In this document: in pieces, positions 3,025 through 11,170 of the stretch
Layout of the letters: each line of letters begins with the position of its first letter
Position numbering within the stretch: position 1 is the stretch's first letter
Source of the DNA: Solirubrobacteraceae bacterium
Lineage (GTDB): Bacteria > Actinomycetota > Thermoleophilia > Solirubrobacterales > Solirubrobacteraceae
NCBI GenBank assembly: GCA_024710825.1
Contig: JANJUA010000379.1
Coordinates: forward strand, 1 to 13,770
DNA: 13,770 bases
Reading direction: 5' to 3'
Notes under the pieces: generated by a model
Told to the model about the DNA's origin: nothing
Database searches by the model: none
The model's input: only the letters and a program-made list of their open reading frames with translations
Position numbers and translations under genes: made by a program

Positions 3025-5571
3025 ATGTCGGGGATCGTGGCCGCCCACGGGCCGTTCGACCCGCGGATGGGCCTGCGGATGCTCGAGCGGATCGCGCACC
3101 GCGGGCCCGACGGCAGCGGCAGCCGGACGGTCGGGGACGCCTGGCTGGGGCATCGGCGCCTGGCGATCGTCGATCCCGAGGGCGGCGCGCAGCCGCTGTG
3201 CGGCGTCCGGCGGGACCTGTGGATCGTGGGCGACGGCGAGATCTACAACCACGAGCGGCTGCGGGAGCGGCTCGGCGAGAGCCGCTTCCGCACGCGCTCC
3301 GACCACGAGGCCGCGCTGCTCGCCTACGACGAGCACGGCATCGACGCGTTCGACCGCCTGTGGGGCATGTTCGCGCTGGTCATCGCCGGTACCGACGGGC
3401 GCTTCGTCGCCACGCGCGACGACTTCGGCGTCGCGCCGCTGTACTACGCCCGGCGCGACGACACGACGATCTTCGCCTCCGAGCTCAAGGCGTTCGACCC
3501 GGAGTGGCGCCCCGTCGCCCACCCCCTCCCCGCCGGCCATGCGTGGAGCCCCGTCGAGGGGCTGCGGCCTTGGCGGTCGAACGCGGTCGCCAGGCCGGTG
3601 CTGATGCGCACCCGAGGCGCCGGCGAGGCGCCGCCGGACTGGGTCTTCGACGCGGTGCGCGACAGCTTGACGAGAGCCGTCGAGCGGGCGCTCGTGGCCG
3701 ACGTGCCCATCGGCGTGTTCCTGTCGGGCGGACTGGACTCGAGCCTCATCACCGCGATCGCCGCGCGGGTCGCCCGGCGGCAGGGGTGGACGCTGCCCAC
3801 GTTCGCCGCCGGCCTCCCCGGCAGCCCGGACCTCGTCGCCGCGCGCCGCGTGGCCGAGCACCTCGGCACCGACCATCACGAGCGCGAGTTCTCGCTGGAC
3901 GAGGCGATCGCGCTGGTCCCCGAGGTGATCGGCATGCTCGAGTCCTTCGAGCCGAGCCTGGTGCACAGCGCGGTCCCGAACCACCTCGTCGCCCGGCTGG
4001 CCCGCGAGCACGTGAAGGTGGTGCTGATCGGCGAGGGCGCCGACGAGCTCTTCGCCGGCTACGCGCACTACGCGCAGATCGAGACGGCCGACGAGCTGCA
4101 CGCCGAGCTGGTCGACACCATCGGCGGCATGCACAACCTCGGCCTCCAGCGCGTCGACCGCGTGACGAGCGCGAACGGCATCGAGCCGCGGATCCCCTTC
4201 CTCGACCTCGACGTCGTCGAGCTGGCGCTCGCCCTGCCGCCGGGCTGGAAGCTCACCGACGAGGGCCGTCCGGAGAAGTGGCTGCTGCGGCGCGCCTTCG
4301 ACGGCTGGCTGCCCGACGACCTCCTGTGGCGCCCGAAGGAGCAGTTCGGCGAGGGGACCGGGATGAACGAGGTGCTGGAGGAGCACTTCGGCGCCCAGGT
4401 GACGACGGCGGAGCTCGAGTCCGAGCGAGACGTCGTCGTGCCGCCGTTGCGGACGCGCGAGGAGGTCGCCTTCCACCGCATCTTCGCCCAGCGGCTCCCG
4501 GGCGTGGCCGACAGCGAGGTCATCGGACGCTTCCTCGAGGATCCGACGTCGGACTCGCCGACGATCCGCCGGCTCATGCCTCGACTCCAGGCGCTCTACG
4601 AGCGGCATCTCGCGATCGACTCCTCCGCGATCTCGACCTACTACGAGCCGGGCAAGGGCTACTGCTCGCTGGCGGAGACCACCTCCAGCCACGACGAGTT
4701 CGCCATCAGCGTCGCGACGATCGGCGGGGAGGTGATGAGCGTGGGCGACGCCGAGCTGCCGTTCGCGCTGCAGTCGGTCTCCAAGGTGTTCGCCTACGCG
4801 CTCGCGCTGGAGGACCTCGGCCGCGAACGGCTGCTGGAGCATGTCGGCGTGGAGCCGAGCGGGGACCGGTTCAACTCGATCGTCTTCGACGAGCGCCACA
4901 ACCGGCCGTACAACGCGATGGTCAACGCCGGGGCGATCGTGACCAGCAACCTGGTGCGCGGAGCCGACGTCGACGAGAAGCTCGAGCGGATCGTCGGCAG
5001 CCTCCGCGAGTACGCGGGCAACGCGACGCTCGACGTGGACCAGGAGACGTTCGAGGGCGAGCTGCGCTCGGCCGACCACAACCGGGCGACCGCCTACCTG
5101 ATGCGCGCGCAGGGCATGGTCGAGGGAGACGTCGAGGCCGGCCTGGCGCTCTACCTCCGGCAGTGCTCGGTGAAGGTCACCTGCCCCGACCTCGCGATCA
5201 TGGGGGCCACGCTCGCCAACGGCGGCGTCAACCCCATCACCGGCGCCGCGTGCCTGCCCCGCGACCGCGTGCGCGACGTCCTCAGCGTGATGTACACGTG
5301 CGGGATGTACGACTTCGCCGGGCAATGGGCCTACGAGGTCGGAGTGCCGGCGAAGAGCGGCGTCAGCGGCGCGATCCTCTGCGTGATCCCGGGCAAGATG
5401 GGCATCGCCGTCTTCTCCCCCGGCCTGGACCCGTACGGCAACAGCGTCCGCGGGACCCGCGTGTGCCGGGAGATCTCCGCACGGCTCGGGCTCCACGTCT
5501 TCGCCACGGAGGAGGAGGACGCGATGCTCGGTCAGGCCGGCCCGGCGGCGGTGCCGGCGCGGCTGCCCTGA
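3025..5571 (+). CDS. Asparagine synthetase (AsnB-like) fused to serine-type glutaminase (GlsA-like)
   Basis: An 848-residue fusion. Residues 1-~195 are a class II glutamine amidotransferase fold (HRGPD at 25-29, RRLAIVD, GEIYNH, SDHEA). Residues ~205-510 are the ATP-pyrophosphatase synthetase domain, with P-loop SGGLDSS at 234-240, GEGADELFAGY at 336-346, RIPFLD, and Lys438 in PKEQFGEG, the lysine conserved in asparagine synthetases. From ~515 to the end is a full glutaminase of the beta-lactamase-like GlsA family: SxxK catalytic pair Ser584/Lys587 (QSVSKVF), NAGAI with Asn634, Tyr710, Tyr762, and PAKSGVSGAI near 775. The predicted chemistry is Gln to Glu + NH3 in the C-terminal part and Asp + ATP + NH3 to Asn + AMP + PPi in the synthetase part. 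The usual catalytic Cys is Ser2 and the oxyanion Asn is Asp70, so the N-terminal glutaminase is probably dead. His314 stands where an Arg is usual. No frameshift or internal stop is visible. The domain calls are firm; channelling between them is inferred. Confidence 0.93.
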   Translation: MSGIVAAHGPFDPRMGLRMLERIAHRGPDGSGSRTVGDAWLGHRRLAIVDPEGGAQPLCGVRRDLWIVGDGEIYNHERLRERLGESRFRTRSDHEAALLAYDEHGIDAFDRLWGMFALVIAGTDGRFVATRDDFGVAPLYYARRDDTTIFASELKAFDPEWRPVAHPLPAGHAWSPVEGLRPWRSNAVARPVLMRTRGAGEAPPDWVFDAVRDSLTRAVERALVADVPIGVFLSGGLDSSLITAIAARVARRQGWTLPTFAAGLPGSPDLVAARRVAEHLGTDHHEREFSLDEAIALVPEVIGMLESFEPSLVHSAVPNHLVARLAREHVKVVLIGEGADELFAGYAHYAQIETADELHAELVDTIGGMHNLGLQRVDRVTSANGIEPRIPFLDLDVVELALALPPGWKLTDEGRPEKWLLRRAFDGWLPDDLLWRPKEQFGEGTGMNEVLEEHFGAQVTTAELESERDVVVPPLRTREEVAFHRIFAQRLPGVADSEVIGRFLEDPTSDSPTIRRLMPRLQALYERHLAIDSSAISTYYEPGKGYCSLAETTSSHDEFAISVATIGGEVMSVGDAELPFALQSVSKVFAYALALEDLGRERLLEHVGVEPSGDRFNSIVFDERHNRPYNAMVNAGAIVTSNLVRGADVDEKLERIVGSLREYAGNATLDVDQETFEGELRSADHNRATAYLMRAQGMVEGDVEAGLALYLRQCSVKVTCPDLAIMGATLANGGVNPITGAACLPRDRVRDVLSVMYTCGMYDFAGQWAYEVGVPAKSGVSGAILCVIPGKMGIAVFSPGLDPYGNSVRGTRVCREISARLGLHVFATEEEDAMLGQAGPAAVPARLP

Positions 5572-7493: not shown

Positions 7494-9298
7494 TCGCGGC
7501 GGCAGCCGCGACCGCCGCCGCCGTGCTCGGCGGCCCCCAGGTCCCCGAGCCGCCCGTCGAGGCCAAGCCCGTGCGGCCGCCCGTCATCCGCATGTCGTGG
7601 AGCGTTCCACGGCGCTACGAGCGGGCGTGGTCCGCATGGCGGCCCTCGGCGCGCAGCTACGCGCGCTCCTCTGTGCAGCCTTCGCGCGGGTGGGTCGACA
7701 TCGCCCTGTGCCGGTCGAGCGGCGGCGACCGCAGCATCCGCCGCTACGGGGTGCGGATCCAGGCAGTCGGGTCGGGGTACCGGCGCGGCGTGCGCACCCC
7801 ACGCTGCAGGATCGCCTTCCGCGACCTGCCGCGCCTGGGCGCCTACGACCTGACGCTGTCGCTGTACGACGGCGATGGCGCCATCGCGGAGACCACCGAG
7901 CGGATCGCGCCGCGCGACCGGCTCGTCGTGTCGCTGGGCGACTCGATGGCGTCCGGCGAGGGCAACCCGGACCGGCCGGGCAGGTACTCGGTAGACGTCG
8001 GCTCGCGCCGGCGGGTCGATTGGATCTGGAACGCCAAGGTGGGCATCGAGGAGCACCGGCGCGTGCGCTGGAACGACCGTCGCTGCCATCGCTCGGCGCG
8101 CAACGGGCACGCTCTCTTCGCTCGCGATCTCGAGGCGTCGGACCCCCATACGTCGGTCACGTTCGTCAGCCTGGCGTGCTCGGGAGCGAAGCTCGTCGAG
8201 GGCCTGCTCGCCCCGTACGACGGCATCGAGCCGCCCTCGCGAAGCGGACGGGCGCGCGACCACCGCCGGCTGCCCGCCCAGGTCGATGCGCTGGCGGCCA
8301 TGGTCGGGCACCCGGTGCGGAGCGGCGGTCGGACGATCGACGCGCTGCTGCTGAGCGCCGGCATCAACGACATCCACTTCTCCGACGTCGTCGAGGGCTG
8401 TGCGACCAACCTTCGCGGGCCCGGGCGCACCGGGAGCGCCTGCGTGGACGAGGCGATCGGCGCCGGGCTGCAGACCCTCGGCCCACGATACGACCGCCTC
8501 GGCCGGGCGCTGCGCGACCGGGTGGACGTCGCGGAGACCTACATCACCGACTACCCGTCCAACGCGTTCGACGGTGGTGGATGCGGGCTGCTCGGCGCGC
8601 CGCGATTCGGCATCAACCGCTGGGAGGCGCGCCGGATGGCCGATGTGGGCGGCCGGCTCAACGCCCAGATCCGGCTCGCGGCCGCCCGCAACGGCTGGAG
8701 CTACCTGGCGGGGATGACCGACGGCTTCGCCGGGCACCCGTACTGCGCTCGTGACGGCTTCCTCGTCTCGCTGGAGGCGTCGTTCGCGCGGCAGGGCAAC
8801 CGCGACGGCGCCGTGCACCCCAATCGCAGCGGGCACCGCGTGCTCAGGAACCTCCTCGACAGGGGAGTCGTGCTGGACCGCCCCGCGTATCCGCACCGGC
8901 GGGTGACGATCACCGTCGAGCGGTTGCGCATCGGCGAGGGCTTCCCGCCGCGCGCCAGGCTCGATCTGACCGCGCTGTCGGGCGAGCCGGTGCCGACGCG
9001 CCATGTGCCGGTCATCAGGTCGCTCGCCGCTCCCCCCACGGGTGCGTGGGTCGACGTGCCGCCGGAGGCGGGGAGATTCGAGATTGACGTCTACGACGCG
9101 CCTCAGCCGCAGCGGCGGGCCACGGCGTACTCCCTGCTGCTACGCGTCGGCGGCGCCACCGCCGGCGCGACGCACACGGCGGCCGACGAGCTAGGGGCGG
9201 GCACGCACGAGCTGACCGACGTCCAGGGCCGGTTCGCGCTCCGCTACCGGGTCGACGTCCGGACGGTCCCGCCGCCGCCGGAGGCCTCGTCAGGCTGA
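7490..9298 (+). CDS. Secreted SGNH/GDSL-type hydrolase (esterase/lipase family)
   Basis: As read, a 602-residue protein beginning [15 protein letters not shown], a hydrophobic stretch that looks like the core of an export signal. The n-region may lie in the overlapping ORF at 7461. Residues ~30-145 are a beta-rich, Ig-like region. The SGNH hydrolase follows: block [12 protein letters not shown] with the nucleophile in GDS at Ser152, SLACSGAK with the oxyanion Gly, GIND with Asn293, and AVHPN with His443, with Asp439 nearby. Residues ~455-602 form a second beta-rich domain. The family cleaves ester bonds in lipids or acylated polysaccharides. A large secreted two-domain form suggests a cell-wall or extracellular substrate, which is not identifiable here. 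It is probably regulated by the divergent PadR. The last nine bases overlap the end of the convergent nhaA gene. Confidence 0.9.
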
Positions 9299-11170
9299 CC
9301 GCAGCGCCTCGAGCTCGCGCGCGAGCGTCTCGCCGTCGTAGGCGCCCACGTGGCGCCGGGTGGCGACGAAGAACGTCGGGGTGCCGCGCGCGCCGCTCGC
9401 CTCCGCGCCGGCGACGTCCTCCCGGATGCGCGCGGCGAGCCGCTCGTCGTCGAGGTCGCGCGCGAACCGCTCGACATCGAGGCCGAGCTCGGCGGCGTAG
9501 CCGAGCAGGTCCTCCACCTCGAGCTCGTCCTGGTGCGCGAACAGCACGTCGTGCATCTCCCAGAAGCGGCCCTGCTCGGCGGCCGCCTCCGCCGCGCGCG
9601 CCGCCAGCTCGGCGTGAGGGTGCACGTCGGTCAGGGGAAGGTGGCGGAAGACGTAGCGCAGCTCGTCGCCCAGCCGCTCGCGCAGATAGCGCACGACGCC
9701 CGTCGCGCGCCCGCAGAAGGGGCACTCGAAGTCGGCGTACTCGACGAGGGTCAGCGGCGCGTCGGCCGGCCCGCGGATGTGGTCGCGCCCGCCGTCGACC
9801 GGGCGGTCGAGCACCATCGGCAGGCCGGCGGTGCGCTCCCCGCGCAGCACGGCGGCCAGCCGGAACACGGCAAACGCCACCGCCGTCGCCAGGACCGCCG
9901 CGAGCAGCACGCCGACCGTCGCCTGGTCGCGCAGCTCGGCGTCCTCGAAGGCCAGATGCGCGATCAGCAGCGACACGGTGAAGCCGATGCCCGACAACGC
10001 GGCGCCGCCGAGCACCTGCCCCTCGCCGACGCCCTGCGGCAGCGAGCCGAGCCGCAGCCGCAGCGCTCCGAGGGCGCCGCCGCCGATGCCGACGAGCTTG
10101 CCGACCACGAGCGCTACGACGACGCCCCACGTCACGGGCGAGCCGAGGGCGTCGGCCAGCACGCCGCCGCCCAGGGCCACCCCGGCGTTGGCCAGCGCGA
10201 AGATCGGCACCACCACGTAGCTCGTCCACGGATGCAGGACCGTCTGGAGGCGCTCGTTGACCGACACGGCCCGGCGCAGCCCCCGCGCGGCGGAGTTGCC
10301 GACGTCCGGCAGCGGCGACTGGCGGAAGGCGCGAAACAGCGACGCCGCGTGCTCGACCTCGTGGCGCCGCGGGAGCCGAGCGGCGATCGCCAGGCCCGCC
10401 GCCATCCCGGCGATCGACGGATGCAGCCCCGACTCCAACGTGGCGACCCACAGCACGACGGCCAGCAGCACGTAGACCGACGCGCGCCACTCGCCGAGCC
10501 GGCCCAGCAGCGCCAGCGCGGCGAGGCAGGCCGCCGCCACCGCCAGGGCGAGCGGGTCGAGGGCGTCGGAGTACGCGGCGCCGATGACGGTCACGGCGAC
10601 GGCGTCGTCGAACACGGTGATCGACAGGAGGAAGACGCGAAGCTGCGTCGGGCAGGCCGGGCCGACGAGCGCGAGCGCCCCGAGCAGGAACGCCGTGTCG
10701 GTGCCGATGACGATGCCCCAGCCGTTGGACGCCTCGCCCGACGGATTGAGCGACAGGTACAGGGCGATCGGGACCAGCATCCCGGCGAGCGCCGCCGTCG
10801 CGGGCAGGACGATGCGGCGGCGGTCGGTCAACTCGCCCACCGACAGCTCGCGCCGCACCTCCAGGCCGATCACGAAGAAGAACAGCGCCATCAGGCCGTC
10901 GTTGACCCAGTCGCGGAGATCGAGCGCGATCTCGCTCGCGCCCACGCGGATCGCCGCCTCGGTGCCCCACAGCGACTCGTAGGAATCCGACCACGGCGAG
11001 TTCGCCCACAAGAGCGCCGCCACCGTCGCGGCCAGCAGCAGCCCCGCGCTGCCCGCCTCGTTGAGCAGGAACGCCCGCAGCGGGGAGGCGAGCTGCGCCG
11101 TCAGAGCCGCACGCCGCGACCGCGTCTGGTCGGCGGCCTGCTCCGTCACCTCCTCCGTCGGCGGTCGCAT
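9290..11170 (-). CDS. nhaA: Na+/H+ antiporter NhaA with C-terminal DsbA/thioredoxin-like domain
   Basis: A 626-residue membrane protein. Residues ~28-445 are a full NhaA with about 12 membrane helices. It keeps the key acidic and basic residues: Asp158 in GTDTAF (E. coli Asp133), Asp188-Asp189 in VFDDAV (the sodium/proton-binding pair, Asp163-Asp164) and Lys358 in VGKLVGI (Lys300). After a short linker, residues ~460-626 are a DsbA-like thioredoxin fold with [12 protein letters not shown] (Cys483-Pro-Phe-Cys486) and the cis-proline loop GTPTFF (Pro598). This NhaA-thioredoxin arrangement is known as a domain architecture in actinobacteria and some other bacteria; its redox role has not been shown, as far as I know. 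The antiporter exchanges H+ for Na+ and controls pH and salt. It follows the FAD oxidoreductase by 15 bases, so the two are probably co-transcribed. The start lacks a clear ribosome site. Confidence 0.95.

Follow-up and report, generated by a model that had tools for sequence, protein, structure and literature searches.

The 13,770-nucleotide contig analysed here (the window), from a draft genome of a Solirubrobacteraceae bacterium, encodes at positions 3025 to 5571 of the plus strand a single 848-residue protein in which an AsnB-like relative of asparagine synthetase is followed, in one stop-free open frame, by a GlsA-type serine glutaminase. The fusion is real. By its sequence, the AsnB half is part of a separate actinobacterial clade in which the catalytic cysteine of the built-in glutaminase is replaced by serine (Ser-type, as opposed to Cys-type), and the partnership of synthetase and glutaminase recurs in relatives as separate neighbouring genes. 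We favour, with moderate confidence, the reading that the protein is a one-chain ATP-dependent amide synthetase in which GlsA would replace a dead amidotransferase as the source of ammonia.

Architecture and authenticity of the fusion

Pfam places the domains of the 848-residue protein in the order class II amidotransferase fold, Asn_synthase, GlsA. The first is marked by PF13537 at residues 43-158 and PF13522 at residues 29-153, the second by PF00733 with 247.7 bits over two stretches, and the third by PF04960 (Glutaminase), which matches residues 555-826 with 360.6 bits against a cut-off of 27 and covers positions 14-286 of the 286 in the model. The program-made open frame begins upstream, at a TTG at 2953, and the start of the homologues corresponds to the ATG at 3025 (MSGIVAAHGPFD), which a GGGAGG stretch immediately precedes. 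From there, the N-terminal nucleophile (Ntn) amidotransferase fold takes up residues 1-165 (3025-3519), the AMP-forming synthetase domain residues ∼200-505 (3622-4539), and the serine-type glutaminase residues 515-848 (4567-5568). Homology to AsnB ends at GRFLED (around residue 505) and homology to GlsA begins at RRLMPRLQ (residue 515), leaving a linker of about nine residues (4540-4566).

The initial annotation had described a complete AsnB-like protein running without interruption into a complete serine-type glutaminase. Our analysis bears out the single uninterrupted chain with all of its Pfam domains, and the motifs are all as stated: SGGLDSS at residues 234-240, GEGADE at residues 336-341, the catalytic lysine as Lys438, the pair S584-xx-K587, NAGA, and AKSG. 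A stop codon or frameshift near 4560-4620, which would have separated two genes, was looked for in the translation and none was found. The word complete holds for the amidotransferase fold and fails for its active site, where residue 2 is a serine and not the nucleophilic cysteine.

The window belongs to a 3.04-Mb draft genome in 444 contigs (90% complete), and a draft of this kind could harbor an assembly or annotation artefact uniting two genes; the same fusion is found, however, in the protein clusters P0001 (848 amino acids, 98% identical to the window protein, 5 member sequences) and P0002 (859 amino acids, 83% identical, 14 member sequences, on a 98-kb contig), both with the same four Pfam domains, which makes an artefact so unlikely that we reject it outright. 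A search with the fusion protein scored 8000 candidates, of which 7999 were significant and the best 120 were listed, with P0001 and P0002 ranked first, and in precomputed Pfam assignments the PF04960 glutaminase domain is absent from 118 of these 120, P0001 and P0002 being the exceptions. In a search with the GlsA part, an Asn_synthase domain was likewise seen in P0001 and P0002 only, among the best 120 of 1775 significant matches (8000 candidates). As far as seen, the fusion is confined to one lineage, and more distant fused halves could have escaped both match lists. We recognised no description of an AsnB-GlsA fusion or of the Ser-type clade in the open-licence literature, judged by titles and abstract openings.

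One candidate for a second GlsA fusion, a 1327-residue open frame in G799:C31, was rejected since the long frame overlaps another frame of 739 residues and GlsA homology starts directly after the latter. By eye, the 739-residue frame resembles a molybdopterin oxidoreductase.

The GlsA half looks alive. It scores 319.3 bits against TIGR03814 (cut-off, 255.4), and S584, K587, N634, E679, N686, Y710, Y762, and V780 match human glutaminase (3czd) in the alignment; Tyr546 is not covered by that alignment and agrees with the GlsA of a genome of the same order, G690. The earlier claim of a complete serine-type glutaminase with its SxxK pair is thus upheld by PF04960, TIGR03814, and the alignment at S584 and K587. 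Compared with known GlsA enzymes (TIGR03814, PF04960; salt-tolerant glutaminase 3agd, human kidney glutaminase 3czd), the full domain, the Ser-Lys pair, and the pocket residues are the same; what differs is that this one follows an amide synthetase in the same chain. No second PF04960 gene was found in the window's draft genome.

Residues that separate the Ser-type clade

The AsnB half was compared in an alignment of 155 rows (the window protein, the 120 listed proteins, and 34 genome loci), which are the best matches of our own searches and share ancestry. At position 2, which is the catalytic Cys1 position of AsnB (Ser2 codon, 3028-3030), Ser occurs in 120 rows, Cys in 23, and Ala in 1, with the end missing in 11; among the 120 listed proteins the figures are Ser 108, Ala 1 (P0102), and end missing as predicted 11. 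When 59 rows were placed on a quick tree, a single branch with a Shimodaira-Hasegawa-like approximate likelihood ratio (SH-aLRT) support of 100 divided the 32 Ser-type from the 23 Cys-type sequences. One of the 120 listed relatives, P0071, carries the source name Ruania albidiflava.

With the groups defined by position 2 (S in the 120 Ser-type rows and C in the 23 Cys-type rows), 14 of 503 columns split them almost perfectly (2, 70, 94, 113, 137, 224, 314, 335, 348, 373, 377, 382, 419, and 443). Leaving position 2 aside, 502 columns remain, of which 13 separate the groups, and 5 of 16 mapped positions from the literature coincide with one of these 13 (p = 1.9e-5), a value that is indicative because the 16 were listed after the columns had been seen; R339, along with three tunnel residues that could not be mapped, was left out of this test.

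Several of these columns belong to the glutaminase site and the path of ammonia. Position 70 (Asp70 codon, 3232-3234) corresponds to Asn74 of human asparagine synthetase (ASNS), the oxyanion Asn of AsnB, and is D in 120/120 Ser-type rows versus N in 23/23 Cys-type rows; according to PMC6748925, Asn74 is part of the hydrogen-bond network of the glutaminase for substrate recognition and thioester stabilisation. Position 137 (Ala137 codon, 3433-3435) corresponds to human Arg142 (Ile143 in Escherichia coli) and holds A94 V11 S8 T7 in the Ser-type versus K in 23/23 of the Cys-type. Arg142 is the proposed gate of the ammonia tunnel, and the variants R142A and R142I keep their ammonia-dependent kinetics with a kcat for glutamine that is several-fold lower, according to PMC11615228; this effect goes in the same direction as the change fixed in the Ser-type rows.

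Others lie in the synthetase half. Position 335 (Ile335 codon, 4027-4029) corresponds to human Ser362, a tunnel residue close to the ribose, which it contacts, and reads I67 V26 A26 T1 versus T22 C1, so that I, V, or A stands in 119/120 Ser-type rows. Within Gly373-Val377 (4141-4155), position 373 corresponds to human Asp400, which has been modelled in the amino-group pocket (G119 A1 versus N22 D1), Arg403 is kept, and position 377 is Ala404, in the tunnel (V117 A3 versus C17 G3 A2 T1). Position 314 (His314 codon, 3964-3966), human Arg340 in Met numbering and Arg339 in Cys-1 numbering, is H in 120/120 versus R in 23/23. PMC7284041 tabulates the same substitution, p.R340H, found homozygous in asparagine synthetase deficiency, but the structure paper (PMC6748925, section 8) states that no patient residue seems to lie next to aspartate or ATP.

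The adenylating core has been kept. E337, D340, E341, R376, K438, the SGG triplet, D238, and S239 are invariant in all 143 rows, the positions of human E364, D367, E368, R403, and K466 are retained, and SGGxDS, GEGxDE, and the catalytic Lys are present in the window protein and in 120/120 Ser-type rows, bar one G-E-G-S in which S stands for A. Set against AsnB and ASNS (TIGR01536, 1ct9, 6gq3), the fusion protein therefore has the same order of amidotransferase and Asn_synthase domains and the same synthetase motifs, and differs in Cys1 to Ser, Asn74 to Asp, the tunnel changes at R142, S362, and A404, D400 to Gly, R339 to His, and the additional C-terminal glutaminase. Judged from these residues, the built-in glutaminase and channel of the Ser-type clade look dismantled while the ATP/pyrophosphate motifs and the catalytic lysine stay.

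Fusion to GlsA was considered as the cause of the loss of Cys1 and rejected: the loss marks the whole Ser-type clade, which puts the fusion at a later point, in a single lineage. We also withdrew an argument for a dead N terminus that had been drawn from N-terminal extensions, since the Ile before Ser in P0061 and P0066 could just as well reflect initiation at an ATC codon. ATC stands at the homologous start in 5 of 23 Ser-type loci (L075 8900, L076 2872, L077 511, L112 10766, and L114 10813), and in three of the five an in-frame stop lies just upstream, so translation seems to begin at ATC, a rare initiator.

Linkage of glsA and the source of ammonia

Ser-type loci were collected from 3 of 232 genomes of the window's order (window included) and from a 396-genome sample of the phylum, which gave 9 more along with 5 further matches that were Cys-type. 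The family to which G607 belongs (35 genomes) added 5, and in the G803 order 7 of 297 genomes carry one. The total is 24, of which the 23 with a readable start all have Ser; further loci may have escaped the thresholds, which were set at 1e-175 to 1e-185. For the Cys-type, the surroundings of 23 loci were examined, including the 5 from the phylum sample, one more match (G081) being left out. A glsA gene is fused, adjacent, or within 8 kb at 13/24 Ser-type loci, the fusion included, versus 1/23 Cys-type loci (Fisher p = 2.6e-4), and at the lone Cys-type locus it lies 3.4 kb away.

At least four arrangements of asnB and glsA occur. In G690, which is of the same order as the window, glsA is divergent from Ser-type asnB with 47 bp between them, and its product is 69% identical to the fused GlsA domain; glsA is also divergent in G795 and G796. 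In G232, a decayed glsA (L030 6641-7012), of which only the C-terminal part is recognisable and the frame is broken, abuts an intact Ser-type asnB. The gene lies 7 kb from Ser-type asnB in G607, and 4.6-4.9 kb away and convergent in 7/7 carriers of the G803 order. A PF04960 gene is present in all 24 Ser-type genomes and in 13/18 hand-picked non-carriers of the G607 family. In a quick tree of 48 rows the linked GlsA proteins form two subfamilies, the G803-order type (with a cyclic nucleotide [cNMP] domain in the one member scanned) and the rest.

The coupling of glutaminase and synthetase is thus physical in the fusion and genetic across the Ser-type loci. In the mechanism that we propose, the AsnB half would have lost its own glutamine hydrolysis (Cys1 to Ser, Asn74 to Asp) and altered the matching channel while keeping the adenylating core; GlsA, at Ser584, would convert glutamine to glutamate and NH3; and the NH3 released beside the synthetase would attack the acyl-adenylate (acyl-AMP) made by the AsnB half. 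Both active sites would then be at work, with the ammonia of GlsA, and not its glutamate, used by the partner. An AsnB without Cys1 is expected to work with ammonia. Delivery would be by local release rather than through a tunnel, and the AsnB tunnel is probably not used. In PMC11615228, the kinetics of human ASNS are put down to free ammonia that enters the synthetase site directly, and on this basis no tunnel from Ser584 to the ATP site would be required.

Several observations weigh against this reading. The loci are not independent, and collapsed by eye to lineages the contrast in glsA linkage falls to 6/15 versus 1/20 (p = 0.027). At 11/24 Ser-type loci glsA is unseen in the available stretch, several contigs being short. 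G232 retains its synthetase gene with the adjacent glsA broken, another glsA being present elsewhere in the genome. At the 6 G803-order loci examined, an importer lies between asnB and glsA, and the convergent glsA is on the strand of the importer and not on that of asnB. Linked and unlinked GlsA proteins of the second subfamily are intermixed on the tree, where the fused GlsA has the unlinked GlsA of G232 as its nearest sister, so that linkage marks no GlsA clade. E. coli AsnB, whose residue at the R142 position is Ile, uses glutamine, which makes the change at that position only suggestive. Moreover, free ammonia is present in cells anyway, and we know of no ammonia-delivery tunnel in GlsA.

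Some of these points would suit mere co-regulation, in which an ammonia-dependent amide synthetase draws on bulk NH3, GlsA supplies glutamate in the same stress response, and the fusion is a device for co-expression without transfer of substrate. The distance and convergent orientation of glsA in the G803 order fit such an account, as do the recruitment of GlsA partners from two subfamilies, the genes of a ProV/OsmF-like importer beside 11/23 Ser-type and also 2/23 Cys-type loci, and a gene for the mechanosensitive channel MscL directly upstream in two loci. It is, however, replacement of the glutaminase that predicts the excess of glsA at Ser-type over Cys-type loci, and a linker of only about nine residues also speaks against co-expression as the sole purpose; we regard co-regulation as rather unlikely.

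The AsnB half could instead be an amine ligase, using an amino group rather than NH3 as the nucleophile, with GlsA providing glutamate as a substrate. Beta-lactam synthetase, CarA, and lasso-peptide cyclase are AsnB relatives with a dead Ntn domain, and the fusion protein has the same combination of a degenerate Ntn domain with an adenylating domain; its altered acyl site (S362, D400, R339) recalls such neofunctionalised enzymes, and 1jgt and 1q15 are among its 8 PDB matches. Its similarity is nevertheless mainly to AsnB (289.5 bits to 1ct9, much lower at 78.6 to 1jgt and 67.1 to 1q15), it scores above the cut-off of the asparagine synthase model TIGR01536, and it carries an additional glutaminase, which would be hard to explain as a dedicated supplier of glutamate, a metabolite abundant in cells. 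This alternative seems to us distinctly unlikely.

It is highly unlikely, finally, that Ser2 is a working Ntn nucleophile, that the N-terminal domain still hydrolyses glutamine, and that GlsA is an accessory: certain other enzymes do use Ser as their Ntn nucleophile, Asp93 (Asp98 of E. coli AsnB) persists in 120/120 Ser-type rows, and the start MS is retained in most rows, but Asn74 has become Asp in 120/120, the glutamine-binding Arg (position 45, Arg49 of E. coli AsnB) survives in just 75/120, and the channel residues are changed. Withdrawal of the argument from N-terminal extensions raised our estimate for this alternative very slightly and lowered that for the replacement of the amidotransferase by GlsA to the same small extent.

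Product, neighbouring genes, and significance

The initial annotation had proposed a self-contained glutamine-dependent asparagine synthetase with a replacement ammonia source. The fusion is genuine, its N-terminal site is degenerate, and a glutaminase of different fold is the obvious replacement; asparagine as the product stands on weaker ground. The protein passes TIGR01536 (366.5 versus 267.1 bits), which counts against a wholly different product, and misses NF006949, the model for asparagine synthase B (455.7 versus 499 bits). With the E364, D367, and E368 positions kept and TIGR01536 passed, asparagine would be a possible product; with the D400, S362, and R339 positions changed and four other AsnB-family loci with Cys (MCG) in the window genome, it becomes doubtful, and from these residues we consider it possible rather than probable. 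An acid or amino acid other than aspartate, perhaps giving the amide of an osmolyte, appears at least as likely. We also considered whether free asparagine might be needless for want of an asparaginyl-tRNA synthetase (AsnRS); no AsnRS match exceeded the cut-off, but GatB too was found only as a 109-position piece, and with the draft genome 90% complete this result decides nothing.

AsnO, of the AsnB family, amidates the osmolyte N-acetylglutaminylglutamine amide (NAGGN), taking the amide from glutamine, and has been proposed in the actinobacterium Frankia too, according to PMC5563000. The window protein is likewise an AsnB-family enzyme; it differs in scoring 233.8 bits against the AsnO model TIGR03104, below the cut-off of 570.1.

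The neighbours of Ser-type asnB, an OsmF/ProV-like importer and MscL, suggest osmoadaptation and name no substrate. The importer scores far under the cut-off of the OsmF model and just above that of ProV. As an exclusive mark of the Ser-type it is weakened by the two Cys-type loci that have it within ∼5 kb (L084 and L088), and the association with the importer may be older than the loss of Cys. The MscL genes lie at L076 2114-2752 and L077 4-393. A gene for a glutamine-type NAD synthetase stands beside Ser-type asnB at 4/23 loci (L075, L078, L082, with CN_hydrolase and NAD_synthase domains, and L114). In the window, an amidase-signature gene (PF01425; 1519-2934, plus strand) lies 90 bp 5' of the fusion; its membership in the system is doubtful, and no relative was found beside the 22 other Ser-type loci searched. 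On the minus strand, 9290-11170 encodes a 626-residue protein that by eye resembles an NhaA-type Na+/H+ antiporter with a DsbA-like thioredoxin domain joined to it.

Glutamine-fed synthetases swap their ammonia-making modules, and the known modules come from few folds. Other amide synthetases have a separate or swapped glutaminase, as in NAD synthetase with a nitrilase domain, GatCAB, HisH/HisF, and MurT/GatD, whose glutaminases belong to other classes (triad, Ntn, nitrilase, and amidase-signature). The logic of a synthetase with an interchangeable glutaminase module is the same in the fusion, the difference being that its module is a serine glutaminase of the GlsA family. GlsA is normally thought to be purely catabolic, and we know of no characterised GlsA that is the ammonia donor of a synthetase. 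More broadly, and tentatively, there may be a new class of amidotransferase here, spread over at least two classes of Actinomycetota, in which a neofunctionalised AsnB clade forms an amide, probably for osmoadaptation, with ammonia from a GlsA dedicated to that task. In that case the built-in glutaminase would have given way to glsA genes from the neighbourhood, drawn from two subfamilies, and one of these genes would have become fused, as far as seen, in a single Solirubrobacterales-like lineage.

If true, this would be a glutaminase swap caught under way: among relatives, glsA is variously divergent, decayed, nearby, or fused. Names also call for caution, as many of the listed unfused proteins are called asparagine synthase (glutamine-hydrolysing) though the hydrolysing Cys is missing. 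The Ser-type clade would then offer a natural test of how much the ammonia tunnel matters.

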